64,000 bases of DNA from NCBI GenBank assembly GCA_005773635.1, contig SXHN01000074.1:1-64000 (forward strand). The letters run 5' to 3'. Of the stretch, positions 29,125-47,101 are shown piece after piece (the stretch's first letter is position 1; every line of letters begins with the position of its first letter). A model generated the notes under the pieces. The model did no database searches. It saw nothing but the letters and a program-made list of their open reading frames with translations, and was not told where the DNA came from. Origin of the DNA: Actinomycetota bacterium (GTDB lineage: Bacteria; Actinomycetota; Acidimicrobiia; IMCC26256; PALSA-610). The position numbers and the translations under genes are program-made.

Positions 29125-29140
29125 TAGAACGCGTTACACT
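29125..29140 (+). promoter_or_regulatory. KstR-like operator overlapping the -10 box of the aldehyde dehydrogenase operon
   Basis: TAGAACGCGTTACA (29125-29138) fits the mycobacterial KstR motif TnnAACnnGTTnnA at every fixed position and has a palindromic core AACGCGTT. TACACT (29135-29140) is a -10 box 7 bases before the ATG. A TetR-type repressor here would block transcription. Confidence 0.5.
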
Positions 29141-29147: not shown

Positions 29148-30617
29148 ATGACTAGCGGAAGCTTTAAGAATCTGATCGGGGGGCAATGGGTCGACGGCGC
29201 CGACGGCGCCTATGAAATCCATAATCCCGCCAACGGCAGTGTGGTCGGCCATGCACCCGAAGCATCGGTGCAACAGTCGCTCGATGCCGCTCGTGCTGCG
29301 AAGGACGCGTTCGCAAGCTGGTCGCGTACGACGCCCGAGTACCGAGCGGAGCTTTTGTCGAAAGCCGCCGACGCAGTGCGCGCCCACTCGGCAGATCTCG
29401 TGCCGCTGGTGATCTCCGAGACTGGTTGCACTGCCGCCGTCGGTAACACAATGCAGGTGCCGCAAGTGGTGGCGCGGTTCGATCGTTACGCCCGCGGCGC
29501 GATGGAAGACCTCGATATCCCCCTGTCTCCTATGGAGATGCCTGCAACTGCGCTTGCGCCCGGTGGCATTATGGGCGCAGTAATTCGCCGCATCCCGGTC
29601 GGCCCGGTTGCGTGCATCTCTCCGTACAACTTTCCGCTGGTGAACATCGCCGGAAAGATCGGCCCCGCGCTCGCTACTGGCAACACCGTCGTGGTGCGGC
29701 CCGCGTCGCAAGACCCGTTGGCCGTCATCGAATTGTGTCGCATCCTCAACGACGAAGTCGGATTTCCCGAAGGCGTGATCAACTGCGTTACTGGTTCGAC
29801 ACCTCCGAGCGGTGAAGCACTTGTCGAAACCCGCGACATCGACATGATCTCATTTACCGGTTCGACGGGGGTCGGCTTGCGAATCGCTGAGGTGGGCGGG
29901 CGCACGATGAAGCGGTTGCTGCTCGAACTCGGTGGTAAGGGCGCGGCGTTAGTACTTGAAGACGCTGATGTGAAAACTGCCGTTGGCGCAATCATGTCGG
30001 TGTGGGCATTTCACTCGGGGCAAATTTGTACGGCGCCGACACGCGTTATCGTGCACCGTTCGAAGTATGACGAACTCTGCTCGGGCCTCGTGCAAGCAGC
30101 TGGCTACCTGAAGGTCGGCGACCCTCTGGCACTAGGCACCGTTGTCGGTCCGTTGATCACTGAAGCGCACCGCGCTCGCGTGGAGAGCTATATCGCGGCC
30201 GGAGTTGCCGAGGGCGCCACCGTCGCGGTCGGCGGCGGGCGGCCCGATGGGCTTGATCAAGGCTGGTATGTCGAGCCGACGTTGATCACTGAGTGTCGCC
30301 CCGACATGAGGGTGGTGCGCGAAGAAATCTTCGGACCCGTTGTGGTAGTCGTGCCCTTCGACGGTGACGATGAAGCTGGCATCGCGATCGCGAACGACTC
30401 AGATTTCGGCCTCTACGACTATGTGTTCTCAGGAGATTCGGGCCGTGCGCTGCGGGCTGGCCAGCTCTTGCGGGCCGGAAACATCGGCATCAACACAGTG
30501 CAGCGCCACCACGAGGCGTGTTTCGGCGGCACGAAATATTCGGGTGTCGGACGAGATGGCGGAAGCTTCGGTTTGCATGCCTATACCGAGATGCAAAGCA
30601 TGGTTTGGAGCCGATAG
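29148..30617 (+). CDS. NAD(P)-dependent aldehyde dehydrogenase
   Basis: A 489-aa ALDH-superfamily enzyme. The NAD-site FTGSTGVGLRIAE, the general-base Glu in LLLELGGKGAAL and the catalytic Cys in SGQICTAPTRV are present, as is EIFGPVVVV. It oxidises an aldehyde to the acid. It is first of three genes with overlapping ends: its TAG shares a base with the GTG of the first LLM oxidoreductase. The leaderless promoter carries a KstR-like operator, so the substrate may come from lipid or isoprenoid catabolism (inference). Confidence 0.93.
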   Translation: MTSGSFKNLIGGQWVDGADGAYEIHNPANGSVVGHAPEASVQQSLDAARAAKDAFASWSRTTPEYRAELLSKAADAVRAHSADLVPLVISETGCTAAVGNTMQVPQVVARFDRYARGAMEDLDIPLSPMEMPATALAPGGIMGAVIRRIPVGPVACISPYNFPLVNIAGKIGPALATGNTVVVRPASQDPLAVIELCRILNDEVGFPEGVINCVTGSTPPSGEALVETRDIDMISFTGSTGVGLRIAEVGGRTMKRLLLELGGKGAALVLEDADVKTAVGAIMSVWAFHSGQICTAPTRVIVHRSKYDELCSGLVQAAGYLKVGDPLALGTVVGPLITEAHRARVESYIAAGVAEGATVAVGGGRPDGLDQGWYVEPTLITECRPDMRVVREEIFGPVVVVVPFDGDDEAGIAIANDSDFGLYDYVFSGDSGRALRAGQLLRAGNIGINTVQRHHEACFGGTKYSGVGRDGGSFGLHAYTEMQSMVWSR

Positions 30618-31555
30618 TGACAGTGAACATCGTTCCCGACGGCGAGTTGGCCTACGGCATTCAGCTGCCCGTGCAGGCGAAATCCGTGCGCACTTCAATG
30701 GAGTGGGAGCGCGGTGCGGAGATCGGTGCATCTGCGATGGTGCGGGCCGCGAAAGCGTGTGACGACGCCGGCTTCTTCTACGTCGCAGTGTGCGATCATG
30801 TTGCCGTTGCAGCTCCGGCCGCGATCGACGGCGGCATGTCGGCGACGTGGTACGACCCGATCGCAACGCTTGCCTATGTCGCAGCGGTGACTACCCATAC
30901 GCGGTTGATGACGAACGTGTATGTCGCGGCCTATCGCCACCCGTTGCAGACTGCGAAACACTTCGCCACAATCGACGCGCTGAGTAACGGTCGTGCAATT
31001 TTGGGAGTGGGCGTCGGCCACTTGCAGAGCGAGTTCGATGCACTCGGCGTCTCGTTCGTGGATCGAGGTGCTGCAACCAACGATGCGATTGATGGAGTGA
31101 TCGCTGCATGGGGCAACGAATTCCAGCAACTGCCGGCCCCGGTGCAAACGCCCCGGCCTCCTATTTGGATCGGCGGGTCAGGGGCGCCGGCATTGCGTCG
31201 CGTCGCGGAACGCGGCGATGGGTGGATTCCGCAAGGCACACTGCGCACCGTGATGCCTGAATCGATCGCGTTCATTCGCGCGCACCGCGACATGGTGCGC
31301 CCCGACGCGAAGCTGGATATCGGCTATATCCACGAGTATGTGTACGTGGGCGAAGCCAACTGGGATTTCGATGGCGAGTACACGGTTACGGGTTCCGACC
31401 AGCGCATTGTCGATAAGTGCAATGAAATGGGCACGATGGGCGTGAACCATTTGCAGATGCGGCTGCGATGCAGGGATCTCGACGAGTTCTGCGATCAGGC
31501 GGCGGCATTCGGTGAGCGGATTGGGCCCCACCTCGAATCGCAGGGAGCTATCTAA
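30617..31555 (+). CDS. LLM-class (luciferase-like) F420/flavin-dependent oxidoreductase
   Basis: A 312-aa luciferase-like TIM-barrel protein: YGIQLPVQAKS, DDAGFFYVAVCDHVAV, TRLMTNVYVAAYRHP, LGVGVGHLQSEFDALGV and PPIWIGGSGAPALRRVAERGDGW are typical of the F420-binding group in actinobacteria. GTG 30617 overlaps the ALDH stop by one base; the longer frame lies inside the ALDH gene. Such enzymes reduce or oxidise ketones, alcohols or sulfur/nitrogen groups. It is coupled to a second LLM gene by TAATG. The exact reaction is unknown. Confidence 0.88.
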   Translation: MTVNIVPDGELAYGIQLPVQAKSVRTSMEWERGAEIGASAMVRAAKACDDAGFFYVAVCDHVAVAAPAAIDGGMSATWYDPIATLAYVAAVTTHTRLMTNVYVAAYRHPLQTAKHFATIDALSNGRAILGVGVGHLQSEFDALGVSFVDRGAATNDAIDGVIAAWGNEFQQLPAPVQTPRPPIWIGGSGAPALRRVAERGDGWIPQGTLRTVMPESIAFIRAHRDMVRPDAKLDIGYIHEYVYVGEANWDFDGEYTVTGSDQRIVDKCNEMGTMGVNHLQMRLRCRDLDEFCDQAAAFGERIGPHLESQGAI

Positions 31556-32538
31556 TGGCGGTCATGGTCACGATGCGCCAAGACTTTCGAGCGCCCGCGT
31601 TTGGCCCCGCGACGACTGCCGAGATCTATTCGGAAGCGTTAGCGATGTGGGCTTGGGCCGATTCACGTGGTTGGGACATGGCCGTGGTGTCAGAGCATCA
31701 TGGCATCGCCGACGGGTGGATGCCGTCGCCATTCACGATCGCAGGCATGGGCCTCGGCCGCACACAGCGGATCCCGTTTTTTATCTCAGCGTCGTTGTTG
31801 CCGTTACATGATCCAATACGAATTGCGGAACAAATCGCCGTGCTCGACTGTGCTGCGCCGGGTCGCTTAATGACGGTGTTTGGTGCTGGATACCGCGTCG
31901 AGGAATTTGAAATGGCTGGGGTCGCCCACAAGGAGCGCACGAAGATCCTGGAAGCGAGCATCGCCGTTGTGCGCGATGCCCTTGAACACGGAGTTGTTGA
32001 ATATCAGGGCCGATCCGTGACGGTAACGCCGCGCCCAGTCACGCTGCCGCACCCGATGCTGTTTGTTGGTGGCGGTGTGCCTGCTGCAGCACGGCGAGCC
32101 GCGCGTTTGCGGTTGCCAATGATGCCGATGAACACCGACCCGGAGCTCCCGATCGCGTATGCAGCCGAAGCGCAACGGGTGGGCTACACCGAAGGGTTCG
32201 TGATGCACCCCAACGGCCCGACCTTCTTGCATGTCGCCGACGATCCCGAACGGGCATGGGTAGAGATTGGCGAGTACCTCTTCTACGAAACGAGCACGTA
32301 CGCCTCATTTCAAACTCCTGGCCAACACTCCACACCCGTCGTGCACGCCGACGACATTGAAGGGCTGAAAACTGCGTCGAACCTATGGATCGGCACACCG
32401 CAACAGATCATCGATCGTGTGCAAGCCCACCCCGACGTTGCCGCGCTCAACTTTCATCCGCTAGCGGGCGGTTTGCCGCCGCGTCTGGCATGGGAAAGCC
32501 TCGAATTGTTCGAAAACAAGGTGCGAAAATACATCTAG
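31555..32538 (+). CDS. LLM-class flavin-dependent oxidoreductase/monooxygenase
   Basis: A 327-aa luciferase-like protein, only distantly similar to the preceding one: DMAVVSEHHGIADGWMPSP (bacterial luciferase-type His-His), LPLHDPIRIAEQIAVLD, GRLMTVFGAGYR and LFVGGGVPAAARRAARL. ATG 31555 overlaps the previous stop (TAATG), so the two LLM proteins are made together and may act in sequence on one compound. It meets the convergent DUF202 gene with a 4-base overlap of ends. Confidence 0.88.
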   Translation: MAVMVTMRQDFRAPAFGPATTAEIYSEALAMWAWADSRGWDMAVVSEHHGIADGWMPSPFTIAGMGLGRTQRIPFFISASLLPLHDPIRIAEQIAVLDCAAPGRLMTVFGAGYRVEEFEMAGVAHKERTKILEASIAVVRDALEHGVVEYQGRSVTVTPRPVTLPHPMLFVGGGVPAAARRAARLRLPMMPMNTDPELPIAYAAEAQRVGYTEGFVMHPNGPTFLHVADDPERAWVEIGEYLFYETSTYASFQTPGQHSTPVVHADDIEGLKTASNLWIGTPQQIIDRVQAHPDVAALNFHPLAGGLPPRLAWESLELFENKVRKYI

Positions 32539-32879
32539 GGCGCGAGGGCTAGCGCGAGTGCCGCGATTCCTAACGCGGAGGTGCCGTATGCGGTTGCGGC
32601 CAACGTGCGCGCGTTCGCCACGGGGCGGCCTTCGAGGCTGGCGCGGGCAATGAGGCGGGCCCATGCCAACCCAATGGCCCAGCCGACGCCAGCGACGGCC
32701 AACGCCGCCATCACAATTGTGAGTGCCGACGGGTCGTCGACAGTATCGAGGATGCGCTTCGCTACGGCGCCGAGAAGTGTCAAAACTGCAAGGCCAGAGC
32801 GCGACCACGCCATGTCGGTACGTTCGCCAGCAAGCCCCGGCACCTCGTGGTCGTCGATTGACGCATTCACTTGGGTCAT
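32535..32879 (-). CDS. DUF202 membrane protein
   Basis: A 114-aa protein with three predicted helices. The family hallmark ERT-x2-AWSRSGLAVL follows the N-terminal tail, then TIVMAALAVAGVGWAIGLAW and a C-terminal helix. DUF202 (YidH-type) proteins are small inner-membrane proteins without known function. Its ATG overlaps the stop of a second DUF202 gene by four bases, so a hetero-oligomer is likely. Confidence 0.85.
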   Translation of the reverse strand: MTQVNASIDDHEVPGLAGERTDMAWSRSGLAVLTLLGAVAKRILDTVDDPSALTIVMAALAVAGVGWAIGLAWARLIARASLEGRPVANARTLAATAYGTSALGIAALALALAP

Positions 32880-33241
32880 TGTGTTCCGATGCTTGCAACG
32901 ACGGCGGCGATTATTGCGGCGAGGGTCACTCCGATCGCCAACAATTTAGGGAGATTCGACGCGGGCAACGGACGTTGTTCGCGCATTGCCCGTTCGTTGG
33001 CATCCCAACGCCAAAAGCTGGTCATCGACAGTAACGCACCGAGGGTAATGAGCGGGACGCCGATGATTTTGCGGCCACCGCCGAACGAGAACTCTGGCAA
33101 CACCGATGCTGCCGCGAGGCCAGTCGCGATGAGCGCCATCGCGGTGCGATTCCACGCGAGAAAAGTGCGTTCGTTCGCATATGAAAATCGCACGTCGGGC
33201 TCGGTGCCGATCTCGTGCAGCGGTCGTTTGTCGCGTGCCAT
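32876..33241 (-). CDS. DUF202 membrane protein (YidH-like)
   Basis: A 121-aa protein with the DUF202 signature YANERTFLAWNRTAMALIATG and two further hydrophobic helices (IIGVPLITLGALLSMTSFW, LLAIGVTLAAIIAAVVASI). The ATG follows the sulfatase TGA directly (TGAATG), making a sulfatase-DUF202-DUF202 operon. Tandem DUF202 pairs are common in bacteria. Function unknown. Confidence 0.87.
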   Translation of the reverse strand: MARDKRPLHEIGTEPDVRFSYANERTFLAWNRTAMALIATGLAAASVLPEFSFGGGRKIIGVPLITLGALLSMTSFWRWDANERAMREQRPLPASNLPKLLAIGVTLAAIIAAVVASIGTQ

Positions 33242-34744
33242 TCAGTATCCCAATCGAACAAACTGATCTGCGGGCGCTTCTACCTCGGTGAGTGCTGCAT
33301 GCAACATATCGGCGAGATGCGCACCAAAACGATCATCACAAAGGTTGCGCAGTTCGCCGGGATCGGAGCCGAGGTCGAATGCCTTGGAGCCGTCGAACTT
33401 TGCGTACGACCAAAACGGTCGTGGGTCACTGGCTTCGAAGGGTTGTCGAATAACAGGTATCGACGACCCCGGCATGTGGTCGAGATAGGCGCGATCATCG
33501 GGCATCGGTAGTTTGAGATCGGGAAAGCCACCCACTGGCATCGTGCTCCAGCGGTTCGAAAACATCGACATCGGCACGTTTCCCGCTACTGGAGCGCGCA
33601 CATACTTTGCGTGATCCGCGATGAGATGCACTTCACGCCCGTATACACCGGACAGCGCCCACTCGCGAATGGAAACGGCTTCGCGGTGCAAAAGCGGAAG
33701 CAGTGAGTGCCCATGGGTCCGGTGGTCACTCGTCGCCCCGAAGATGTCGAGCAGTGTCGCATGAAGATCGACGTTGGTCGTGAGCGCGTCGCACGTCATT
33801 GGTGACGCGGCATTGCTGTCTGTCGGCCATCGAATCAACAACGGCGTGTGACCGAGCGGCTCGTAGATCGGGCACGCGGGCTTGCCCCAGATGTCGTGTT
33901 CACCAAGGAAGTGCCCATGATCCGTACACACGATTACCGCAGTGTCGTCGTTGCTCTCATCGATTGCGGTGAGGAGCTCGCCAAACCAGTGATCAATGAA
34001 CGTGAGCTTCGCGCCGTAGTTGGCGCGAATTTGGCGGCCTTCCCGTTCGGTGATGACGCCCTTCGCGACGGCTCCGACGGTGTACGGCGGCCAGATCAGT
34101 CGTTGCGCCTCTGACCAATCTGGGTCGTACATCGACGCATACGGCTCTGGCGTATCGAATGGTTCATGCGGATCAAATTCGTCGATGAACAACAAGAACC
34201 GGTCGTGGTGAATCGCTTCTTCGCGCAGCCAGCGTGCCGCTTCTCGCATAACCCGAGGGCCAGGAAAGTCGGCTTCATCGCGAAACCAGCCGCGAGAATG
34301 GTCATAGTGCGACGATGGGCGGCCGAACATTGGTGCGCCGATCCAGCTTGGATCTGCGTGTGTGCGCCATGGATCGCTCTCGTGTCCGCGTTGGTAATCC
34401 CAAGCGGTGAATTCGGTGTGGTAATTCTCGCCGCCCACTTCGAACAGATGCGGATGGTCGGTCACGAGTTTGGTGACCACACCAGCCCGACGCAGTGGCG
34501 CCGTCAGCGGCTCTTCCCACAATTCCACTGATCCCCACGGTTTCCAGAGAAAATCGAGTGCCCCGCACAACAAGTCGTGGCGGGCGGGCATACAGGGCAG
34601 CGAACCGCTGTAATGCTGCGTAAAGCGAGTTGCGCTATCCGCGAAACGATCCAAATTGGGGGTGGCGAATTCGGTGCTGCCGTACGCGCCGAGCATGTGG
34701 CGATTGAGTGAGTCGAGCAGTACTACGACCACGTTCTGCGCCAT
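33242..34744 (-). CDS. Sulfatase (formylglycine-dependent, cytoplasmic)
   Basis: A 500-aa sulfatase of the alkaline phosphatase superfamily. The FGly motif CMPARHDLLCG (Cys51) is intact for oxidation by the formylglycine-generating enzyme. Metal and core motifs VVVLLDSLNRHMLG, FIDEFDPHEPFD and VIVCTDHGHFLGEHDIWGKP are present. The N-terminal metal site has Asp-Ser rather than Asp-Asp, a variant seen in related actinobacterial sulfatases. There is no signal peptide, so the sulfate ester must be taken up. ATG 34744 is chosen over 34804 because a TACGGT -10 box lies 7 bases upstream of it and the conserved region begins there. It is divergent from a P450 gene. Confidence 0.9.
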   Translation of the reverse strand: MAQNVVVVLLDSLNRHMLGAYGSTEFATPNLDRFADSATRFTQHYSGSLPCMPARHDLLCGALDFLWKPWGSVELWEEPLTAPLRRAGVVTKLVTDHPHLFEVGGENYHTEFTAWDYQRGHESDPWRTHADPSWIGAPMFGRPSSHYDHSRGWFRDEADFPGPRVMREAARWLREEAIHHDRFLLFIDEFDPHEPFDTPEPYASMYDPDWSEAQRLIWPPYTVGAVAKGVITEREGRQIRANYGAKLTFIDHWFGELLTAIDESNDDTAVIVCTDHGHFLGEHDIWGKPACPIYEPLGHTPLLIRWPTDSNAASPMTCDALTTNVDLHATLLDIFGATSDHRTHGHSLLPLLHREAVSIREWALSGVYGREVHLIADHAKYVRAPVAGNVPMSMFSNRWSTMPVGGFPDLKLPMPDDRAYLDHMPGSSIPVIRQPFEASDPRPFWSYAKFDGSKAFDLGSDPGELRNLCDDRFGAHLADMLHAALTEVEAPADQFVRLGY

Positions 34745-34751
34745 GTTTGGG

Positions 34752-34757
34752 ACCGTA
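34752..34757 (-). promoter_or_regulatory. -10 box of the sulfatase operon (leaderless)
   Basis: TACGGT on the minus strand, 7 bases before the ATG at 34744. Confidence 0.45.
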
Positions 34758-34838
34758 GTCGGCCAACGCTCTGATTGTTGCGAAGCTGGGAGAGTGGTCA
34801 GCAACGGTCCAGTTCAGGGCCCTGTCGCGCGTCATTAT

Positions 34839-34856
34839 GAGAACACGTTCTAGTAT
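34839..34856 (+). promoter_or_regulatory. KstR-like palindrome overlapping the -10 box of the P450 gene
   Basis: AGAACACGTTCT (34840-34851) is an inverted repeat AGAAC-AC-GTTCT; the 14-base KstR frame (34839-34852) fits at seven of eight fixed positions. TAGTAT (34851-34856) is a -10 box 6 bases before the ATG. Confidence 0.55.
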
Positions 34857-34862
34857 GGAAAC

Positions 34863-36107
34863 ATGCAACTTGCAGATATCAATCTCAACGACATGGACCG
34901 CTTTCAGGACAACTTTCCGCATGAGTGGTTCACCTATCTCCGCAACAATCTTCCGATTCACTTCCACGAAGGCCCCGACGCCGAAACGCCGGGGTATTGG
35001 GTGTTTACGAAGTACGACGACATCGTCGCGTTGAGTCGTGATTGGGAGACCTTCTCGTCGGAGCGTTCCGATCCGGAAGCGCCAACCGGTGGCGTCATGA
35101 TCAACGAGATGCCCGCGGAGGCCGGCCTTGGAGCGATGATGCTGACGATGGATCCGCCGAAACACACGCGGTATCGCAAGATCGTCATGAGCGCGTTTAC
35201 GCCACGTGTGCTGCGATTGTTCGAAGCCACCGTGAAACGGCGAGCGACCGAGATCATCGACACAGTGATTGAACGCGGCGAATGCGATTTCGTGAACGAC
35301 ATCGCGGCCGAACTCCCGCTGCAAGCCATCGCCGAGATTCTGGGCGTGCCAATGGAAGATCGTGGCAAACTGTTCGACTGGACGAACGCGATGGTTGGTT
35401 CGACCGACCCTGAATACGCCGTCTCGGAAGTCGATACCATCAATGCGCAAGTCCAAATGTTTACGTATGCGAATGAACTGGCATTGCAGAAACGGGCTGG
35501 CCATTACGACGACATCGTGAGTGAAATTCTGAACTCTGAAGTCGAAGGCGAAAAGCTGGACGAAATGGAGTTCGATCTTTTTTTCATGTTGCTGACGGTG
35601 GCGGGCAACGAAACCACGCGTAACGCGATTTCGCACGGCATGCTGGCGTTCTTTGACAACCCAGAACAATGGAAGCTGCTGACCGAACACCCAGAGCACC
35701 TCAACACCGCCGCCGAGGAAGTTGTGCGGTGGGCAAGCCCAGTCATCTATTTCCGGCGATCAGTCACCAAAGACATTGAATACAAGGGCCATCTGCTCAA
35801 GAAGGGCGACAAGATCACGATGTGGTATCCGTCGGTGAACCGCGACGAAGATGTGTTTCCTGAGCCCTTCAAATTTGACGTCACGCGCTCTCCGAACAAG
35901 CACCTCGGATTCGGTGGCCACGGGCCGCATCACTGCCTTGGTTTCAACCTCGCCCGTATGGAAATCGTTGCGATTTTCGACGAACTTACCCGCCGAATGC
36001 CTGACATCAAGATCGCCGGCGACGTCGACCGTTTGCGCTCCAACTTCATCAACGGCATCAAGCGCATTCCAGTCACCTTCACGCCGGGGGTAAAGGAACT
36101 TGATTGA
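34863..36107 (+). CDS. Cytochrome P450 (CYP125/CYP142/CYP124-like)
   Basis: A 414-aa soluble bacterial P450. The I-helix oxygen-binding motif AGNETT (247-252), the K-helix ExxR in EEVVR (285-289) and the heme loop FGGHGPHHCLG with ligand Cys358 are complete. Overall it looks most like the mycobacterial P450s that hydroxylate the sterol side chain or methyl-branched lipids (DPPKHTRYRKIVMSAFTPR, RRSVTKDIEYKGH), but the substrate is not proven. The leaderless promoter carries a KstR-like operator. The gene is divergent from a sulfatase, suggesting use of a sulfated lipid or sterol (inference). No ferredoxin gene is adjacent. Confidence 0.92.
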   Translation: MQLADINLNDMDRFQDNFPHEWFTYLRNNLPIHFHEGPDAETPGYWVFTKYDDIVALSRDWETFSSERSDPEAPTGGVMINEMPAEAGLGAMMLTMDPPKHTRYRKIVMSAFTPRVLRLFEATVKRRATEIIDTVIERGECDFVNDIAAELPLQAIAEILGVPMEDRGKLFDWTNAMVGSTDPEYAVSEVDTINAQVQMFTYANELALQKRAGHYDDIVSEILNSEVEGEKLDEMEFDLFFMLLTVAGNETTRNAISHGMLAFFDNPEQWKLLTEHPEHLNTAAEEVVRWASPVIYFRRSVTKDIEYKGHLLKKGDKITMWYPSVNRDEDVFPEPFKFDVTRSPNKHLGFGGHGPHHCLGFNLARMEIVAIFDELTRRMPDIKIAGDVDRLRSNFINGIKRIPVTFTPGVKELD

Positions 36108-36344: not shown

Positions 36345-37550
36345 TCAGCGTTCGTCGATGTGCCAGGGCTCGCCGAAGTTGTTCATGAGATCGAGGTAGG
36401 GGACAGCGTCGAATGCTTCCGGGCCGAGCACGCCACTACCTTCCCAAATGCCATTCGCGAGTAGTTCCAGTGCAAACACTGGATTGATTGCGGTTTGCCA
36501 TACAACCGCTTGGCAGCCGTGTTTTGCCATGGTTTCTTCGTTGTCGCTCACGTGATACAAGTACGACGCTCGCGGCTTGCCATCTTTGCCGAGCCCGGTC
36601 ACATAGGTGCCAGCACACGTGCGCCCATGCATCTTGTCGCCGAGACTCGCCGGGTCGGGGAGACACGCGGCTACAACATCGCGCGGCGACACCTCCACGC
36701 CGCGAACATTTACTTGAGGAGTGCGGTCAAGCCCGAGTTTGTGCAGCGTTTCCAACACCGAGATGAATTCGTCGCCCAGCCCATATTTGAACGTGACCTT
36801 GTTGCAATCGATCCAGCGTGGCACAAGGAGCACCTCTTCGTGCTCCACGTGTACGCATTCCACATCGCCGATACCGTCCGGGAAGTGAAACACTTCAGGT
36901 TCGGAAAATGGTGGGAGACAAAACCACCCTCGGTCGCGCTCCCAAACAATGGGAGGGTTTAAACATTCTTCGATCACAGTCCAAATCGAAAACGTTGGAG
37001 CAAAGTCGTATCCATCGATTGTGAGATTCGCGCCATCGCGAACCCCGACCTCGTCGATCTGCGAAAACAGGTGGTCGGCTGCGTAGCGCGCCGCCACATC
37101 GGCGAAACCGGGTTCGATGCCCAGGCCACACAACGCAAGCTGACCACGCGCTTCCCATGCAGATGCAACCGCGAACTGTGCATCGCCGAGCTTCACGCCG
37201 CATTCTTCGTGCGGATTGGTGGGGTGAGGCTCCGACAATGTCATTGCCATGTCCATGTAGTTGACGCTCGCGTCGAATGCGCCCTGAAAGATGCCAGGGT
37301 TGAATCGGGGATCGCATGCGTTCATCACGATGTCGACTCCATGAGCCTTCGCCAACGCCGCTACATCCTGGGCGCTCGACGCATCAACTCGGGCCGCCGT
37401 GAACCGCGAATCGTTCACGCGCTCGGCGATGCTGCGCGCCTTGGCTTCGTCAACGTCAGCGATTACCAGATGATCAAAGAATTCGCGGCCGCTTGCGGCC
37501 ACCGCCATCGCGCCGCCCACTCCGCCTGCACCAACGATCAGAATTTTCAT
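36345..37550 (-). CDS. Saccharopine dehydrogenase-family NAD(P)-binding protein
   Basis: A 401-aa protein with an N-terminal Rossmann fold (KILIVGAGGVGGAMAVAA, VIADVDEAKARSIAERV) and the saccharopine dehydrogenase/homospermidine synthase-like catalytic region (NYMDMAMTLSEPHP, LCGLGIEPGFADVAARYAAD). Family members act on amino-acid or polyamine imines; carboxynorspermidine-type synthases are close relatives. ATG 37550 has a TACCCT -10 box 6 bases upstream. It stands alone between the P450 and an operon of unknown pathway; with a polyamine-type synthetase further right, a polyamine role is possible but unproven. Confidence 0.85.
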   Translation of the reverse strand: MKILIVGAGGVGGAMAVAASGREFFDHLVIADVDEAKARSIAERVNDSRFTAARVDASSAQDVAALAKAHGVDIVMNACDPRFNPGIFQGAFDASVNYMDMAMTLSEPHPTNPHEECGVKLGDAQFAVASAWEARGQLALCGLGIEPGFADVAARYAADHLFSQIDEVGVRDGANLTIDGYDFAPTFSIWTVIEECLNPPIVWERDRGWFCLPPFSEPEVFHFPDGIGDVECVHVEHEEVLLVPRWIDCNKVTFKYGLGDEFISVLETLHKLGLDRTPQVNVRGVEVSPRDVVAACLPDPASLGDKMHGRTCAGTYVTGLGKDGKPRASYLYHVSDNEETMAKHGCQAVVWQTAINPVFALELLANGIWEGSGVLGPEAFDAVPYLDLMNNFGEPWHIDER

Positions 37551-37601: not shown

Positions 37602-38390
37602 TTACCAGAGTTGGTCGGTGTAGGTATCGGTGCCCACGACGGTCGCTCGAAACGGCGAGCAGAACGCCGCTTTCGCGATGCCCGCAGCTTCCATAGCTGC
37701 GCCGAGTCTCGCGAAAGAGTCGGCCCACAACGCTGGGAGGTCGCCATCAACGAACCACAACACTGTGAAGCGATTCCCGCCGTCGCTTCTGGGAACGTCG
37801 CTCGGAGCGTCGCCTGCCAACGGAATAGGTGTGAACTCAACTCCGACGACTGCGGGAAGTTCATGTGACTTCAAGAACGTATCGACTTGCTCCAGCGAAA
37901 CTCCGGGGAGCGGCTCGCCAATGAACAACACGGCGTACGGTGAACGGTGATCGAGGGCCAGTTCCGCTGGCACCCCGTCGGGAAGTTCCAACGACGCGCG
38001 GTGTTCGTACATCACGGTGTGAATGTGGTCGCGCTCCAAAAACATGCGGCCGTTTTCGTGCAGCCAGCGCACCTGCGCGACGCCCCACTTCATCCACTCG
38101 GTGAATTTGCCGTCGAGGATCCAATAGATCGCGACATAGCTCCCGGAATTCGGATCGGGGCAAACGTCGTTGTCGACCGGATAACGCAACGCTTTCAAAT
38201 CTTTAGTGGCAACATAGCGACCCCCTTGAATTGTCCAAGCACCAATCATGCAACCCGCGAAATAGTGATCACGCTCGTACCAACGGTTGTACGCGACCTC
38301 ATGGCCCCTGCGCGGCTCAACCATGGTGATCAACGCCCCGCCAAGCGCGATTGGTCGATGTTCGGTGGTACCGGATCCGAGTTCTTGCAT
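37602..38390 (-). CDS. Uncharacterised protein with two possible dimeric alpha-beta barrel (EthD-like) halves
   Basis: A 262-aa soluble protein. The N-terminal half GALITMVEPRRGHEVAYNRWYERDHYFAGCMIGAWTIQ has the strand-helix pattern and Tyr/His residues of EthD-like dimeric alpha-beta barrels; the C-terminal half (VVGVEFTPIPL...RFTVLWFVDGDLPALWADSF) looks like a second barrel. Such proteins are accessory enzymes or heme/ligand binders in catabolic clusters. The ATG shares a base with the stop of the upstream CoA ligase (TAATG), so both work in one pathway. No specific function can be named. Confidence 0.72.
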   Translation of the reverse strand: MQELGSGTTEHRPIALGGALITMVEPRRGHEVAYNRWYERDHYFAGCMIGAWTIQGGRYVATKDLKALRYPVDNDVCPDPNSGSYVAIYWILDGKFTEWMKWGVAQVRWLHENGRMFLERDHIHTVMYEHRASLELPDGVPAELALDHRSPYAVLFIGEPLPGVSLEQVDTFLKSHELPAVVGVEFTPIPLAGDAPSDVPRSDGGNRFTVLWFVDGDLPALWADSFARLGAAMEAAGIAKAAFCSPFRATVVGTDTYTDQLW

Positions 38391-39868
38391 TACACGTACT
38401 CCTTGGCTTGTTCACGTAAGATCGTCTTGTCGACTTTGTGCATCGCATTGACGGGAAGTTCTTCGACACACACCAAGCGCTCGGGACTTTTGTAGTCCGC
38501 GAGCTGCGACCGACACCAATCGCGTACGTCTGACAGCGACGGTGGAGAGTGTTGCGAATCGACAACGAGAAACGCCACTCCAATTTCGCCCACGATTGGG
38601 TCGGGCGCTCCCACCACTGCGGCCGCGATGATCGCGGGATGTTCAGATAACACCGCCTCGACCTCCGCGGGATACACGTTGTAGCCACCGCGGATGTACA
38701 TCTCTTTCAAGCGGCCAACGATGCGCAAGTTGCCCTCGGGTGTCGCGTAGCCGAGATCACCGGTGCGCAGAAATCCGTCGTTGTCAAGTGCATCGGCCGA
38801 GCCCTCAGGATCATTCCAATAGCCGCGAAACATGGCAGGCGACCGGAGCCGGATTTCACCCACGTTGCCTTGCCCCACCGTTGCGTCAGTCCCAGGGGCA
38901 ACCAACCGCATTTCGACGACAGAACTGGGCACACCAACCGTCGTCGCCACAACTTCATCGGAGTCGCTGAGTTGCGTCCCGGTCGCGAGGCCAGCTTCGG
39001 TGCTGGTGTAGCGGGTCATGACGGCGCAGCCAAGACGTTGGCGCACCGCGCGGACTAGCTCAGGCGCAACCGCCGCACCGCCAATCCCAGCAAGGCGCAG
39101 CAGCGATAGATCGATCTCGGCGAGACGAGGGCACTCCAGCATTTTCACCCATTGCGTTGGCACTCCGGTTGCCATAGTGATGCGTTCACGCTCGAGCAGA
39201 TCCACTTGCTTGTCTGCGGTCCACGGATCGGGTACGAGAACCATCGTGACCGTGTTTGCAATGTCGTCCCATGCGCGCGTCATGTATCCAACGTGCGCAA
39301 ACGGCAACGATACGACGCGTCGATCGCCAGGTGCCGATAGGTCACCCATACCTTCGTGAATCGCTTTGAGACAGCGGTGATCGTAGACGGCGCCTTGCGG
39401 TAACCCCGTCGTGCCGCTCGTCCAAACAATCGCCACCGTGTCAGCATCGTGTAAACGCACAGCGAGTCGCGGAGTTCCACGCGTATACAACTGCGACAAT
39501 TCGCCGACCCTCAGCACCGTTCCCCATTCCGACCCGACGTCGAGTGTGTCCGGCGCCACCGTCAACACGGGCGATGTTCTGTGCGAAATGCTCGCTCGTT
39601 CGTTGGGGCCCAAGCGAGGATTCACTGCAGACGTGATCGCGCCCACCTTCATCGCCGCCATATAACACAACGCGAAATCAATAGATGACGGCATGAGCAA
39701 CGTGACCACATCACCGTGTTTGACACCACGATCTTGCAGCGAGGTCGCTATGCCATCGGACATCGCGCCAAATTGCTCGAACGTGATGCGCCGGTCGCCA
39801 TCGACATACGCGTCCCGGTCGCCATGGGTACCGGCCGCCCATTCCAACACCTCGACCACCGTCTGCAC
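38390..39868 (-). CDS. Acyl-CoA synthetase (AMP-binding)
   Basis: A 492-aa ANL ligase: P-loop AIVWTSGTTGLPQG, TRYTSTEAGLATG, hinge NLRIVGRLKEMYIRGGYNVYPAEVE and the terminal catalytic Lys in NAMHKVDKTILREQ, where the usual GK is replaced by HK. It activates a carboxylic acid to its CoA thioester. Start GTG 39868 with a TACGAT -10 box 8 bases upstream and no ribosome-binding site. Two palindromes cover the promoter. It is first in a two-gene operon with the EthD-like protein. Confidence 0.88.
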   Translation of the reverse strand: MQTVVEVLEWAAGTHGDRDAYVDGDRRITFEQFGAMSDGIATSLQDRGVKHGDVVTLLMPSSIDFALCYMAAMKVGAITSAVNPRLGPNERASISHRTSPVLTVAPDTLDVGSEWGTVLRVGELSQLYTRGTPRLAVRLHDADTVAIVWTSGTTGLPQGAVYDHRCLKAIHEGMGDLSAPGDRRVVSLPFAHVGYMTRAWDDIANTVTMVLVPDPWTADKQVDLLERERITMATGVPTQWVKMLECPRLAEIDLSLLRLAGIGGAAVAPELVRAVRQRLGCAVMTRYTSTEAGLATGTQLSDSDEVVATTVGVPSSVVEMRLVAPGTDATVGQGNVGEIRLRSPAMFRGYWNDPEGSADALDNDGFLRTGDLGYATPEGNLRIVGRLKEMYIRGGYNVYPAEVEAVLSEHPAIIAAAVVGAPDPIVGEIGVAFLVVDSQHSPPSLSDVRDWCRSQLADYKSPERLVCVEELPVNAMHKVDKTILREQAKEYV

Positions 39869-40128: not shown

Positions 40129-40884
40129 ATGACACGATTTTCTGGCAAGGTTGCACTTGTGACTGGCGCAGGTAGTGGCTTGGGTCGGGCGACCGCGCGG
40201 CGTTTGGCAAGTGAGGGAGCGACAGTTGCGTGTCTTGATATCGCTGCTGATGCGGCGAAGGCGACCGCCGACGGCATCATCGCTGATGGAGGCCACGCTC
40301 GGGCCTACATGAGCGACGTGAGCGACCCTGATTCATCACGAAATGCCGTCGATGCTGCCGCGAGCGATCTCGGCCGAGTGCAACTCGCGATCACGTGTGC
40401 GGGCATTGGTCGGCTGGTACACACCCATGAGATGCCGTGGGAGATGTGGCGAAAAATTTTGGGTGTCAACCTCGACGGGACCCTGTTGATCTGTCAAGCC
40501 GCAATACCGTATTTGCTCGACGGTGGTGGTCGGATCGTGACCATTGCTAGTAACGCTGGATTGATGGGTCAGCCCTACTCAGCCGCGTACTGTGCGAGTA
40601 AGGGCGGCGTAGTGAATCTCACGAAGGCGTTAGCAGCGGAATACATGACCAAGGGCATCACGGTGAACTGTGTCGCGCCCGGAGGTATGGACACCCCGTT
40701 GCAAAACTCCTTCGCGACAACGCTTCCCGAAGGCGCGAGCTTTCGAGAACTCCACAAAGTGATGACTCCCATGGGCGTCAGTCAACCTGAAGAGGTCGCT
40801 TCGGTGATCGCATTCGTAGCTTCCGACGAAGCGCGGTACATGACTGGGTCGATCGTGAGCATCGACGGTGGCCTGACGATCTAG
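40129..40884 (+). CDS. SDR-family oxidoreductase
   Basis: A 251-aa short-chain dehydrogenase. The cofactor loop TGAGSGLG, CAGIG strand and active-site Tyr/Lys in YCASKGG (with Ser in the preceding IASNAG region) identify a classical SDR; the Asp in CLDIA favours NAD(H). It ends DGGLTI as usual. It is first of three plus-strand genes (SDR, CoA ligase, LLM oxidoreductase) spaced by 33 and 0 bases, which probably degrade one compound. The substrate is likely a hydroxy acid, ester or alcohol. Confidence 0.92.
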   Translation: MTRFSGKVALVTGAGSGLGRATARRLASEGATVACLDIAADAAKATADGIIADGGHARAYMSDVSDPDSSRNAVDAAASDLGRVQLAITCAGIGRLVHTHEMPWEMWRKILGVNLDGTLLICQAAIPYLLDGGGRIVTIASNAGLMGQPYSAAYCASKGGVVNLTKALAAEYMTKGITVNCVAPGGMDTPLQNSFATTLPEGASFRELHKVMTPMGVSQPEEVASVIAFVASDEARYMTGSIVSIDGGLTI

Positions 40885-40917
40885 CTTCGTTTCTCGACCT
40901 GCGCGTGAGGAGTGCAA

Positions 40918-42453
40918 ATGTTTGATGATGCAAAGTCGGTCTCGGAGCTGATCGAACGCCGCGCGGCCGCGAGCCCTAACAAGGTGATGCTGTGCGCCGG
41001 CGAACGCGAAATGACCTTTGTTCAGTATCGCGATGCCGTCGAGGTGGCCGCGGCCGGTTGGGCGGCGCTCGGCGTTGATGAAGGCGACCACGTGTCGTGG
41101 CAACTACCGACGTGGATCGAATCGGCGGTCTTGGTCGGGGCACTGTGTCGCCTCGGCGCGATCCAAAACCCGATGTTGCCGATCTACCGGCAAAAAGAAA
41201 TCGGATTTATTACCGGCCAACTCGGAACAAAATTGCTCATCACGCCGAGCACATGGAACAACTTCAACTATCACGAACTTGCATCGTCGATCGTCGGAGA
41301 TTCAGCAGTGATCGCAGACTCCTGGAACCCTGACGGCGACCCGTCGACGCTGCCTCCAATGCCCAAGGTGTTCGACAACCGTGGCGATGATCCGGTGCGT
41401 TGGGTGTTTTATACGTCAGGCACAACGAGCGATCCGAAGGGCGCACAACATACGGATCGTTCGGTGATGCAGGCTGCCATTGGATACGCCAAGAAGACCC
41501 ATGTGACCGAACACGACATCGCGATTGTTGCGTTTCCCTTCACGCACGTTGGCGGGGCGATCATTGGAGTATTCACGCCGTTACTCACTGGCTCGACCGC
41601 AGTGTTAATGGAGGCCTTCAGCCCGCAACTGACCACCGAGTTGGTGGGGCGTCACAAGGTGACGTTGGGCAATGGAGCGCCGGCGATTCATCAAATGCTG
41701 ATCGCTGAAGCCAAAGCACACCCCGAGGCGTACGCGCACGTCCGAGCCTTTCCAGGTGGCGGGTCGCCCAAACCCCCGAATCAACATGATGAAATCCGAG
41801 CGGTCGTGCCGAGCGCCACACAGGGCATCAACTCGGGGTACGGGCTCACCGAGGCGCCGATCTTGACGCAGACTGATACGGACGCGCTGGATGCAAGCAA
41901 GATTGTAGGTGAAGGCACGCCAACGGAAAGTGTGACGATTCGTCTCATTGATGGGAGCGGCAACGATGTTGCGGCTGGTGCCGAAGGCGAGATCGTGGCC
42001 AAGGGCAATCAGGTGATGCGCGGCTATACCGACCCGTCGCTTGACGCCGCGGCATTTACTCCAGACGGCTTTTTCAAGACCGGCGACATAGGTCGGTTCC
42101 TTGCCGACGGCACGATCGTTGTTACCGGTCGCATCAAAGACATCATAATTCGCAAGGGCGAAAATGTTTCGGCCAAAGAGGTGGAAGACACACTGTTTAA
42201 TCACCCGCTGATTGCCGATGTTGCGGTGTTCGGCATCCCCGACATGGATCGAGGCGAAATGGTGGTCGCCGCGATTGTTCCCAAGGTCGCGGCGAACGCG
42301 CCCGACCAGGCATCGGTGTTGAATTTTTGTAAAGACGCGGGGTTGATGCTGCAGAAAATTCCCGAACGAATAATGGTGCTGGATGCGCTGCCACGAAACC
42401 CAAGCGGCAAAGTGCCGAAGCACGAACTCCGTCGACAACTCGTAGGCGAATAG
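40918..42453 (+). CDS. Acyl-CoA synthetase (AMP-binding)
   Basis: A 511-aa ANL ligase: P-loop WVFYTSGTTSDPKG, INSGYGLTEAPI, hinge TIVVTGRIKDIIIRKGENVSAKEVE and catalytic Lys in NPSGKVPKHELRRQL. ATG 40918 is preceded by GAGGAG at 5-6 bases, so this gene, unlike the operon leader, has a ribosome-binding site; the frame's GTG two codons earlier is less well placed. Similar to cyclohexane-1-carboxylate or medium-chain ligases of actinobacteria. Its stop TAG is followed at once by the ATG of the LLM gene. Confidence 0.88.
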   Translation: MFDDAKSVSELIERRAAASPNKVMLCAGEREMTFVQYRDAVEVAAAGWAALGVDEGDHVSWQLPTWIESAVLVGALCRLGAIQNPMLPIYRQKEIGFITGQLGTKLLITPSTWNNFNYHELASSIVGDSAVIADSWNPDGDPSTLPPMPKVFDNRGDDPVRWVFYTSGTTSDPKGAQHTDRSVMQAAIGYAKKTHVTEHDIAIVAFPFTHVGGAIIGVFTPLLTGSTAVLMEAFSPQLTTELVGRHKVTLGNGAPAIHQMLIAEAKAHPEAYAHVRAFPGGGSPKPPNQHDEIRAVVPSATQGINSGYGLTEAPILTQTDTDALDASKIVGEGTPTESVTIRLIDGSGNDVAAGAEGEIVAKGNQVMRGYTDPSLDAAAFTPDGFFKTGDIGRFLADGTIVVTGRIKDIIIRKGENVSAKEVEDTLFNHPLIADVAVFGIPDMDRGEMVVAAIVPKVAANAPDQASVLNFCKDAGLMLQKIPERIMVLDALPRNPSGKVPKHELRRQLVGE

Positions 42454-43371
42454 ATGCAGGTTTCCGTCACCATCTCCGGCTTCACGCGGCTCTTCGACAA
42501 CGACCTCAGCAAAGTGCTCGACGCTGCGAAAGTTATCGATGACGCGGGCGTACACCAGCTTGTGCTCGCGGACCACGTCGTGATGGGGGATCGAACGGAC
42601 CGTTATCCCTTTGGCACATTTCCGTACCCATCCGAAGAACCCTGGCCTGAGCCGTTGACGTTGTTGGCCGCGATTGCTGCGGTCACCACGAACGTCCGGC
42701 TCGGCACGGGAATCCTCATTGCGCCATTGCGCCCGCCCGCACTGCTTGCCAAAACGGTGGCAACCCTTGATCAGATCAGTGGAGGTCGGGTCGACCTCGG
42801 GGTAGGCACTGGCTGGCAGCGCGAAGAGTATGGCGCGTGCGATGTGCCTTGGAATACCCGATGGCAACGACTCGACGACACGATGCGCGCGTGTGCTGCC
42901 CTGTGGACGACGCCAGGGCCGGTGAAGTTTGCATCCGAAACCGTTTCGTTCGATGCCGTGTGGTGCAATCCAATGCCAGTGCAGACGGCCGCGGACTCTG
43001 GGATCCCCGTCTGGTACGGGGTGGCTGCAAGCGGAGACCACATCGCACGCATGGCTGAGCTTGGTGCTGGTTGGTTACCGATTCACATCACGACGCCGGA
43101 CGAACTTCGTGATGGCATTGTGGCCCTGCGGGCCGCGGTCGCCGATCGCGGTCGCGATCCCAAGGCGTTTCACGTGCGGGCCGGAGCGCGACCGGTGATG
43201 GGCGACGACGGCAGGCTCGACACGGCCGCGACCCAGGCCGAGAATGCCTGGCTTGCCGAAGCGGGCGTCGACTCGGTGAGCATCGGCACTGGGCGTCACG
43301 TGGCCGACGGCGAGTCGCTGCGAGCGTTTTTGAGCGATGCCGTTGAGGCCTTCGCAGGTATTTCGTCGTAA
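42454..43371 (+). CDS. LLM-class F420-dependent oxidoreductase
   Basis: A 305-aa luciferase-like protein of the F420 group: DDAGVHQLVLADHVVMGDRTDRYPFG, TNVRLGTGILIAPLRPPALLAKTVATLDQISGGRVDLGVGTGWQREEY. The start follows the ligase stop without a gap. In actinobacteria such proteins often handle ketosteroids, terpenoids or other CoA-activated intermediates next to FadD genes. The direction of the redox step cannot be told. Confidence 0.9.
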   Translation: MQVSVTISGFTRLFDNDLSKVLDAAKVIDDAGVHQLVLADHVVMGDRTDRYPFGTFPYPSEEPWPEPLTLLAAIAAVTTNVRLGTGILIAPLRPPALLAKTVATLDQISGGRVDLGVGTGWQREEYGACDVPWNTRWQRLDDTMRACAALWTTPGPVKFASETVSFDAVWCNPMPVQTAADSGIPVWYGVAASGDHIARMAELGAGWLPIHITTPDELRDGIVALRAAVADRGRDPKAFHVRAGARPVMGDDGRLDTAATQAENAWLAEAGVDSVSIGTGRHVADGESLRAFLSDAVEAFAGISS

Positions 43372-44283: not shown

Positions 44284-44979
44284 TCAGGTCTGACAAGTTG
44301 GCTGCCGGACGCGGCCACGCGGTGCGGCCATCACTATCTTGAGCCAGTCAACGGCTGCGTCGATCGTTTCCGGGTGGCCATTGACGAGGTCAACACCATG
44401 CGTGGATCCTTGAACAATTTCTGCCTTGCTCTGCAATTCTTGGCTTTCGGTGAGTGCGCGAGCTGTAGCTGCAGTCTCGCCATCGCCGTTTGAAGCGATG
44501 GCGAGTATGGGCTGGCCCGGTACTTTGATTATCTCACCTGCTGAAAAAGTGATTGTGGCGTAGGCGGCGATTTCACAATCGTTGCTGGCCCGCAGCACAT
44601 GACCCGCACCGAGCGACGACCCCATGAGTACGAAGGTACCAACGCCCTCTCCCCGTAGTTGCTGAACGACGGCGGCGATGTCGGGATCGCCCGAGGAGTC
44701 GTAGTCGTAGGCCACTGCTCGATAACCGGCAGCTACGAGCTTCGGCATCACTGGATACCAGGAGTCTTTGTGCGTGCTGCGTCCGTGCACCATCACGATG
44801 GCAGTCGGGGCTTCCGTGTTGCCAAGCTCAGCGGTGGAGTGCCCGGCGATCGTGGTCAAGCGCAGCCCATCGGGCTTCGCGACCTCGCTCCCGCACTGTG
44901 TGGTGAATGTCGCAATGAGTGCGATGCCGAGAGTCGCGCGGATCGTTCTGCGAATCGTTGCAATGCTTGCGAGGTTCAT
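44284..44979 (-). CDS. Exported alpha/beta hydrolase
   Basis: A 231-aa alpha/beta-fold hydrolase with an N-terminal export signal (RATLGIALIATFTTQC; Gln before the Cys is unusual for a lipobox). The oxyanion His-Gly MVHGRSTHKDSW, nucleophile elbow GSSLGAG, and a C-terminal His in GSTHGVDL complete a plausible triad. Closest in character to small carboxylesterases or dienelactone hydrolase-like proteins. The ATG overlaps the stop of the glutamine amidotransferase-like gene (ATGA), placing it last in that operon. Confidence 0.82.
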   Translation of the reverse strand: MNLASIATIRRTIRATLGIALIATFTTQCGSEVAKPDGLRLTTIAGHSTAELGNTEAPTAIVMVHGRSTHKDSWYPVMPKLVAAGYRAVAYDYDSSGDPDIAAVVQQLRGEGVGTFVLMGSSLGAGHVLRASNDCEIAAYATITFSAGEIIKVPGQPILAIASNGDGETAATARALTESQELQSKAEIVQGSTHGVDLVNGHPETIDAAVDWLKIVMAAPRGRVRQPTCQT

Positions 44980-45722
44980 TTCGTCGCCTCAAACTCTGCG
45001 GCGCTGACGAGCGCATCAAAAAGTGACTGTTGGTTCGGATCAGTAGGCGCAGTGTCTTCTGGATGCCACTGAACGGCGAGCGCGAACCACGAAGCATCGC
45101 TGGGCTCGATTGCTTCGACGATCCCATCGGCTGCTCGCCCCACCACCCGCCAGCCCTGCGCAACGCGATCAACGGATTGGTGATGATGACACGAAACGGT
45201 TGGCGTGAGGGTGCTCATCACAGTCGCGACGCGCGACCCGGCGTCGAGCTTGATGAGATGATGTAGCTCGCCGTCGCGAAAACCAGGGCGGCCGTGGGCT
45301 TCAACGCCATCGAGATCAGGAATGTGTTGGTGTAACGAACCACCGAATGCCACGTTGAGTACCTGCAGCCCTCGACAAATTGCGAGCAACGGCACCGACT
45401 GCGCGCGTGCCTCTCGCGCGATCGCGATCTCGAAACTATCCACGGTGGCGTCAGTGCCATACACCGTTTCGTGGCTGATTCCGCCGTAGCGTTGCGGCTC
45501 CACATCGGGTCCACCCGTGAGAACGACGGCGTCGAGCCGCCCTACAAGCATGGTGATGTCTTCATCGCTGCATTGCGCAGGGTCGAGTAGAACGGGGAGT
45601 GCGCTGGCAGCCCGCAATCGCTGCAGATACTTGTCGCGTTCGCCGATGCCGGCTCCGGTCCAGCCTTTGACCCGCCCATCACCAAGCGTACGAGCGGTCA
45701 GACCGACGAGAGGTTTTACCAC
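44976..45722 (-). CDS. Class I glutamine amidotransferase-like gamma-glutamyl hydrolase (PuuD type, C26)
   Basis: A 248-aa enzyme: LTGGPDVEPQRYGG, the nucleophile Cys in LAICRGLQVLNVAFGGSLHQ, and His/Glu in VQWHPEDTA. PuuD-type enzymes release glutamate from gamma-glutamyl-GABA and similar compounds. The frame extends further upstream, but GTG 45722 starts the conserved KPLVGLTART and overlaps the synthetase gene by 7 bases. Lying next to a PuuA-type synthetase, it should remove the glutamyl group that enzyme adds. Confidence 0.9.
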   Translation of the reverse strand: MVKPLVGLTARTLGDGRVKGWTGAGIGERDKYLQRLRAASALPVLLDPAQCSDEDITMLVGRLDAVVLTGGPDVEPQRYGGISHETVYGTDATVDSFEIAIAREARAQSVPLLAICRGLQVLNVAFGGSLHQHIPDLDGVEAHGRPGFRDGELHHLIKLDAGSRVATVMSTLTPTVSCHHHQSVDRVAQGWRVVGRAADGIVEAIEPSDASWFALAVQWHPEDTAPTDPNQQSLFDALVSAAEFEATK

Positions 45723-47101
45723 TGATCGAAGTTTCGCTTGTGTTCCCAATCTGTAACGTGGCGATTGAAGCTCGCCCATTCTTGGCGCGCAGTATTTAAC
45801 AGATGGAAGTGCACCGCTTCGCCGAAGGCATCTATCGCCACCTCTGACTTTTCGAATTCATTGATGGCTTCCACGATGTTCCATGGCACTCGCTCCACGT
45901 CGGTGGAGACATACGCGTTGCCTTGAAAGGGATCGCCGGGCGTGAGTCCAGCTTCAATGCCGTGGAGCCCGGCCGCAATGGTTGCGGCGAACGCGAGGTA
46001 TGGGTTGGCGTCTGCGCCGGGGATACGTGATTCGACTCGGAATCCTTGGCCGTGGCCGACGGTGCGAAATCCGCACGTGCGGTTGTCGTCGCCCCAAACG
46101 ATCGCAGTTGGTGCCCACGACTCGGGCTGGTACCGCTTATATGAATTCACAGTGGGTGCGTGCATCCACGCGAGCTCGCGTGCGGTAGCCATGAGTCCGC
46201 CGAGCCAACCTTGTGTGACCGCCGATTGGTGATGTGGCGCGTTCTCGTCCCACATGAGTGACTGCGCGCCGTGCTGATCCCAAACGCTTGAATGAATGTG
46301 GCATGACGAACCAACGCGATCGATGTCATATTTCGCCATGAAGGTAATGGTGCGCCCGAATTGGTGCGTGATTTCCTTCGCGCCGTTTTTGTAGATCACG
46401 TGACGGTCGGCCATCGTGAGCGCGTCGGCGTATTCCAAGTTGATCTCGTGCTGGCCGAGCTCTGCTTCGCCCTTCGAAAACTCGACAGGAACCCCTGCGT
46501 TGTCCATGCCGTTGCGGATGGCTCGGATGATGGACTCATCGCGCGTGGTCTGCAGAATGTGATAGTCGAGCACTACGTTCGAAATGGGAGCGAGCCCGCT
46601 GTAGCCCTTCGCGGCGGCTTCCTCATGATTCTCTTTGAACAAGAAGAACTCGAGTTCGGATGCCATCTTGACGCTGTAGCCGAGTTTGGCCGCGCGTTCG
46701 ATTTGGCGTTGCAGGATTCGGCGCGGCGACACCTCGATTGGGGAATCGTCGTGCTCATCGACGACGTCGCACATCACAAGTGCGGTGGCCTCCAGCCAAG
46801 GGATTCGGCGGATTGTCGACAGGTCGGGTCGCAGCGCAAAATCGCCGTAGCCTTTTTCCCAATTGGCGAACTGGTAGCCCGGAAGCACGGTCATTTCGGA
46901 GTCGACCGCTAGTAGATAGTTACAAGCGTGAATCTCACCTGCACCGCGCTTCATCTGGCGCAACCAATAGTGGCCGGTCACGCGCTTGCCCATCAGACGG
47001 CCTTGCAAATCAGGAAACACCACCAGAATTGTGTCGATGGTGTAGAGCTCGATTGCAGATGCGAGCTCGTCGGCGTTGAGCATGCCGTGCACTGGTGTCA
47101 T
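45716..47101 (-). CDS. Glutamine synthetase-like gamma-glutamylpolyamine synthetase (PuuA/GlnA3 type)
   Basis: A 461-aa member of the glutamine synthetase superfamily. Metal-site Glu residues in ASELEFFLF and GQHEINLEYADAL, SCHIHSSVWD, NSYKRYQPESWAPT and ESRIPGADANPYLAFAA are conserved, so it should form gamma-glutamyl phosphate. The regulatory adenylylation Tyr loop of GlnA is not recognisable, and the PuuD-type neighbour points to gamma-glutamylation of putrescine, another polyamine or a monoamine rather than ammonia assimilation. It is second in a minus-strand operon: SDR, this gene, hydrolase, alpha/beta hydrolase. Confidence 0.9.
   Translation of the reverse strand: MTPVHGMLNADELASAIELYTIDTILVVFPDLQGRLMGKRVTGHYWLRQMKRGAGEIHACNYLLAVDSEMTVLPGYQFANWEKGYGDFALRPDLSTIRRIPWLEATALVMCDVVDEHDDSPIEVSPRRILQRQIERAAKLGYSVKMASELEFFLFKENHEEAAAKGYSGLAPISNVVLDYHILQTTRDESIIRAIRNGMDNAGVPVEFSKGEAELGQHEINLEYADALTMADRHVIYKNGAKEITHQFGRTITFMAKYDIDRVGSSCHIHSSVWDQHGAQSLMWDENAPHHQSAVTQGWLGGLMATARELAWMHAPTVNSYKRYQPESWAPTAIVWGDDNRTCGFRTVGHGQGFRVESRIPGADANPYLAFAATIAAGLHGIEAGLTPGDPFQGNAYVSTDVERVPWNIVEAINEFEKSEVAIDAFGEAVHFHLLNTARQEWASFNRHVTDWEHKRNFDQW

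Follow-up and report, generated by a model that had tools for sequence, protein, structure and literature searches.

The mycobacterial KstR regulon is the closest described counterpart of the regulatory element considered here. As described in PMC1995591, the published KstR core is TnnAACnnGTTnnA, and the M. tuberculosis kstR promoter carries TAGAAC(N2)GTTCTA, partly overlapping the −10. Our locus has in common with the regulon a 14-bp palindrome of this type, which often lies between divergent genes and overlaps the −10, together with KstR-type TetR regulators and lipid-degradation genes under the palindrome. It differs in having three paralogs and no KstR equivalog by cut-off, in the absence of a detected KstD, and in its target cluster, which is made up of ALDH-LLM-LLM, saccharopine-DH-like, and GS-like genes. 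The two enzymes flanking the palindrome also have described counterparts. The cytochrome P450 shares with CYP125 and CYP124 (8vxi, 2x5w, 6t0f) the fold (TM 0.89), 41–53% identity, the heme-Cys motif, and a KstR-type operator; unlike them it does not clearly belong to one family, and its cluster has no recognisable steroid-ring genes. The sulfatase shares with S1 sulfatases (choline sulfatase 6fny, PMH 2vqr, and S1_7 6hhm) the fold, CxPxR, the metal Asp and His residues, and the positions of His193 and Lys288, but identity is only ~20% and no aerobic FGE was detected in the genome that encodes it.

The window, meaning the whole 64,000-nucleotide stretch of DNA analysed, comes from a 3.56-Mb genome in 125 contigs that is 95% complete. 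Its relevant features are the following.

29125–29138, no strand: second operator-like site TAGAACGCGTTACA, 9 bases 5' of the ALDH ATG (similar sites upstream of ALDH in related clusters)
29148–30617, plus: aldehyde dehydrogenase (ALDH), gene 1 of ALDH-LLM-LLM (PF00171)
30605–31555, plus: LLM oxidoreductase 1 (conserved position, by eye; orthologs in cluster)
31555–32538, plus: LLM (luciferase-like) oxidoreductase 2 (PF00296)
32535–32879, minus: DUF202 membrane protein b (PF02656, E 2e-6)
32876–33241, minus: DUF202 membrane protein a (PF02656, E 1.1e-15)
33242–34744, minus: S1-type sulfatase, 500 aa, without signal peptide, CMPAR at residues 51–55 (PF00884, E 1.4e-29; CxPxR; sulfatase fold)
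34745–34862, no strand: divergent intergenic region, 118 bases (sequence)
34834–34861, minus: weak promoter-like hexamers TTTCCA-16 nt-CATAAT, facing the sulfatase and flanking the palindrome (consensus match alone)
34839–34852, no strand: KstR-type palindrome GAGAACACGTTCTA, its end 10 bases 5' of the P450 ATG (conservation in 4/4 P450 orthologs)
34863–36107, plus: CYP125/CYP124-like cytochrome P450, 414 aa (PF00067, phmmer, Foldseek)
36345–37550, minus: saccharopine-dehydrogenase-like protein (PF16653, PF03435)
37602–38390, minus: p262, a 262-aa conserved protein used as cluster marker (without Pfam or PDB match)
38390–39868, minus: AMP-forming CoA ligase 1 (PF00501)
40129–43371, plus: SDR, CoA ligase 2, LLM 3
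44976–47968, minus: peptidase-C26 type GATase, glutamine-synthetase-like ligase, SDR

A sequence-only reading of this DNA had described an FGly sulfatase with a Cys51 motif and a sterol-type P450, divergent across 118 bases that hold a KstR-like palindrome; the coordinates and the PF00884 and PF00067 matches bore out this arrangement. The sulfatase is followed without a gap by DUF202a and DUF202b (TGA then ATG, and an ATGA overlap, respectively). Translation from the ATG at 34744 yields 500 aa, and the ORF list offers an alternative TTG at 34804 that would add 20 aa. The first strand of the sulfatase model is at residues 4–10; therefore, no signal peptide was seen. The PF00884 fold and the CxPxR motif (Cys51-Met-Pro-Ala-Arg55) are those of an S1 FGly sulfatase. 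Cys51, Pro53, and Arg55 were invariant in 45/45 aligned relatives, as was DHPH at 96–99, and D11, C51, R55, H193, D275, H276, and K288 were kept. Ser12 stands where choline sulfatase has Gln15. Choline sulfatase has a Lys-x-His sulfate-binding pair, Lys102/His104, after the nucleophile (PMC5870055); DHPH falls near this pair in an alignment that is uncertain, also when made with the genome's other sulfatases. The closest solved folds included carrageenan and ulvan sulfatases, phosphonate hydrolases, and choline sulfatase, each at ~20% identity. Assignment to a subfamily by fold was rejected: no single solved subfamily was clearly nearest, and residues 98–153 are poorly modelled. The human STS structure (1p49) matched residues 3–61 only (E 1.3e-7).

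Searches of the whole genome gave 18 PF00884 matches, the window sulfatase included, and one FGE-domain protein. Aerobic FGE was not found with PF03781 in this 95% complete genome. The sole PF03781 match (L145, 1486–2796; contig C37) was rejected as an FGE, since it scored 552.8 bits as EgtB against a cut-off of 360 and adjoins EgtD. Inspection by eye of C60:84001–104000 showed several sulfotransferase-like and glycosyltransferase-like ORFs; further sulfatase matches lie at C60:91676, 113534, and 126376, and this may be a region for a sulfated surface polysaccharide. A record titled Bifidobacterium breve (L042) encodes the identical sulfatase found in G093, a genome of the window's order; judging by its title, it looks like a mislabelled MAG.

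The sequence-only reading had called the P450 sterol-type, and by family this is fair: the best PDB match was the ancestral CYP125 (CYP125MRCA), with 53% identity and a TM score of 0.89. Identities to individual families were 42% for CYP124, 41% for M. tuberculosis CYP125, and 34% for CYP142. Membership in CYP125 requires at least 40% identity and that CYP125 be the closest family. Elsewhere in the genome, nothing pointed to the predicted sterol substrate. In the genome search KstD was not found over cut-off (best 22.1 bits vs 793, PRK12845), nor was a ring-cleavage dioxygenase of the HsaC type (46.3 bits vs 366, TIGR03213), the two enzymes by which 9,10-seco steroid degradation is recognised. 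Because both scored below cut-off and the only FGE-domain protein is EgtB, the sulfated-sterol substrate proposed earlier is unsupported. A literature search found no paper joining a sulfatase, a P450, and sterol in Acidimicrobiia, joining a sulfated sterol, a sulfatase, and a P450 in Actinobacteria, or treating CYP125MRCA.

The palindrome was examined for conservation and frequency. Its core, AGAAC-AC-GTTCT, is at 34840–34851, and the 14-mer GAGAACACGTTCTA has 7/8 fixed bases of the core TnnAACnnGTTnnA given in PMC1995591. It extends into a −10-like TAGTAT. A 14-mer GAGAACNCGTTCTA was present just 5' of the P450 gene in 4/4 orthologs with little conservation in the flanks; these four, the window included, are all the orthologs behind the conservation, and the sites of G004, G002, and G003 are identical to the window 14-mer except for one spacer base. 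A palindrome upstream of a lipid-catabolic gene and overlapping its −10, as in KstR operators, was found, and the earlier recognition of a KstR-like palindrome held up. When 150 nt upstream of genes in 38 cluster loci were searched with up to 2 mismatches, sites were found for the P450 (4/4), ALDH (8/14, the window's own site having 2 mismatches), p262 (2/35), and amidohydrolase (1/6), and for 0/161 genes of 20 other cluster gene types. The other cluster sulfatases had no upstream site under the same conditions (0/4). Because it is absent 5' of these four sulfatases, we conclude that the palindrome is a predicted operator of the P450 and ALDH genes, which the sulfatase faces only in the window genome.

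Raw motif counts were unimpressive. With up to 1 mismatch the window had 1 site against 1.33 expected. Genome-wide, exact AGAACNNGTTCT occurred 7 times against 4 for the reversed control pattern, with two of the seven exact 12-mers inside coding genes (rpoB-like and acyl-CoA dehydrogenase), and the 22 sites within 2 mismatches of TAGAACRYGTTCTA were below the 56 of the control. Such counts were rejected as proof of an operator; it is conservation in P450 orthologs that lifts the palindrome above chance. In the promoter scan the hexamers facing the sulfatase matched the consensus at 9/12 positions (0.2 expected). Shared repression of the sulfatase and P450 in the window genome is possible from this sequence arrangement.

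Candidate regulators were sought among the 25 TetR_N matches of the genome. Three, on contigs C56, C18, and C47, were KstR-like; the remaining 22 were judged by eye. Among PDB entries, the C56 and C18 proteins matched KstR best (E 2e-21 and 6e-19). Among NCBIfam models, the KstR model scored highest for the C56 (129.6 bits) and C47 (145.5 bits) proteins, in both cases below the equivalog cut-off of 280 bits. KstR-type palindromes adjoin the TetR genes on C18 and C47. Others lie between a FadD-like and an EchA19-like gene close to the TetR gene of C56, between two LLM genes on C32, and 5' of an acyl-CoA dehydrogenase gene on C104. A steroid cluster at the KstR-like loci on C56, C104, and C47 was rejected; acyl-CoA genes were found there instead.

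The genes around the pair belong to a conserved, order-wide catabolic cluster. Of 296 class genomes, 73 gave a match to the marker p262, and the set conserved near it comprises ALDH-LLM1-LLM2, CoA ligase 1-p262-saccharopine-DH-like, SDR-CoA ligase 2, GS-like-C26, and an amidohydrolase. The closest matches of the saccharopine-DH-like and GS-like proteins were 4ina and 11zs, respectively. At 44976–47101 of the window, the GS-like ligase and the peptidase-C26 hydrolase, joined in relatives by GcvT, recall gamma-glutamylation of an amine. The GS-like, C26, and ALDH genes are also reminiscent of a polyamine/amine (Puu) pathway, but none scored over an equivalog cut-off.

Within the order, a sulfatase relative (E ≤ 1e-120) occurred in 16/58 genomes and was near p262 in five: the window genome, G011, G012, G013, and G074. 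Of the remaining 11 genomes, 10 have the sulfatase and p262 on different contigs or, in single-contig G016, ~104 kb apart; G199, which has the sulfatase, gave no p262 match. P450 orthologs of at least 72% identity were found in 4/58 genomes, all beside cluster genes (G004 90%, G002 81%, and G003 72%, besides the window). The sulfatase and a close P450 ortholog occurred together in 1/58, the window genome; in G109, a P450 of 56% and a sulfatase of 69% identity lie on separate contigs. At one position in the cluster the P450 either takes the place of the sulfatase or stands beside it, and the window genome has both. In G002 and G003 the P450 and operator are behind LLM2, in a cluster with no sulfatase. 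The order in G004 is saccharopine-DH, P450, operator, DUF202a, DUF202b, with the sulfatase absent; no sulfatase relative at E ≤ 1e-60 was found in that genome. Conversely, the P450 is missing from G011, G012, and G013, where the sulfatase precedes DUF202a and lies between cluster genes (CoA ligase, p262, and usually saccharopine-DH-like) and the DUF202 genes, and G074 has the sulfatase in the cluster and no P450. The window sulfatase and those of G011–G013 group in a supported clade (98/91), so the cluster probably already held the sulfatase when the genera diverged, and G004 would have lost it. DUF202a was present in 14/40 cluster loci (two of the 40, L040 and L225, being one assembly) and adjoined a sulfatase in 4 of these. 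Among the genomes examined, only the window genome has the sulfatase and P450 facing each other across one intergenic region.

The reading that we consider probable, on sequence comparison, is that the palindrome is a KstR-type operator for the P450 and for the ALDH operon of a conserved cluster, and that the sulfatase is an optional entry enzyme. The palindrome would be the operator of a KstR-like TetR repressor. Conservation places it in the P450 transcription unit and gives it a partner site 5' of the cluster's ALDH-LLM-LLM operon. As the palindrome extends into the −10-like TAGTAT, the P450 promoter would be blocked once repressor is bound; the sulfatase promoter probably overlaps the palindrome too, and the repressor may therefore also damp the sulfatase-DUF202-DUF202 operon in the window genome. 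A CoA-type or lipid inducer would then open the cluster. As judged from their families, the P450 would add a hydroxyl group at the end of a hydrophobic side chain, further oxidation would fall to ALDH and the SDR and LLM enzymes, and the ligases would form CoA esters. The sulfatase would be a separate, optional way into the pathway, acting in the cytoplasm and inherited as part of the cluster.

This reading was weighed against the original proposal of a dedicated, co-regulated pair, in which the sulfatase would desulfate a sulfated sterol or other lipid before the P450 hydroxylates it, with the DUF202 proteins aiding the sulfatase. The divergent genes do share an operator, set between promoter-like hexamers that face the sulfatase, and both lie in one catabolic cluster with a P450 of the CYP125/124 type. 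Their joint occurrence in a single genome of the order and the lack of an operator at the other four cluster sulfatases, however, speak against dependence of one gene on the other, and the DUF202 pair, although it directly follows the sulfatase here, is not tied to it and occurs without it, as in G004. With the steroid-ring enzymes below cut-off as well, we regard a dedicated pair as very unlikely; coupled desulfation and hydroxylation is only partly supported, and a sulfated-sterol pathway is possible but unsupported.

Alternatively, the sulfatase could serve sulfur or sugar supply from a small or carbohydrate sulfate, apart from the P450 pathway and adjacent to it by chance. Of 504 confirmed relatives the best 80 were kept; the family reaches 59–69% identity in many phyla, and its neighbours were varied (among next genes PAS_5 13/77, xylose-isomerase-like 4/77, GH3 3/77, also MiaB-like); a constant neighbour of the distant sulfatases was rejected, with no dominant partner in these 80 loci, many of them short. 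A P450-like ORF was present in 2/80, L063 (39%) and L064 (30%), neither close to the window P450. The carrageenan and ulvan sulfatases among the closest folds fit a sugar substrate, yet phosphonate hydrolases and choline sulfatase are there too, and the position of the sulfatase amid cluster genes in G011–G013, and within the cluster in G074, speaks against this alternative, which we consider rather unlikely. It is quite possible that the P450 resembles CYP124 in function and hydroxylates methyl-branched or isoprenoid lipids, and is not a sterol enzyme. Its identities to CYP124 and M. tuberculosis CYP125 are equal within error, the steroid-ring genes were not found in the genome search, and the operators elsewhere precede acyl-CoA genes; the 53% identity to ancestral CYP125 points the other way, although a reconstructed ancestor would tend to resemble every descendant.

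A broader proposal, which we put forward as distinctly doubtful, is that KstR-type control, originally of sterol catabolism, was transferred in this order to an undescribed catabolic cluster whose substrate would be a branched or amine-bearing lipid, with entry by P450 side-chain hydroxylation or cytoplasmic desulfation; the window genome, with both under one operator, could then use a sulfated form of that compound. The locus is also a caution against deducing a pathway from a single divergent pair, since the two genes are optional and distributed separately. What it offers is a conserved catabolic cluster, predicted to be under KstR-type control, from an actinobacterial order without cultured members, along with a few predicted operators and candidate regulators open to direct DNA-binding tests.
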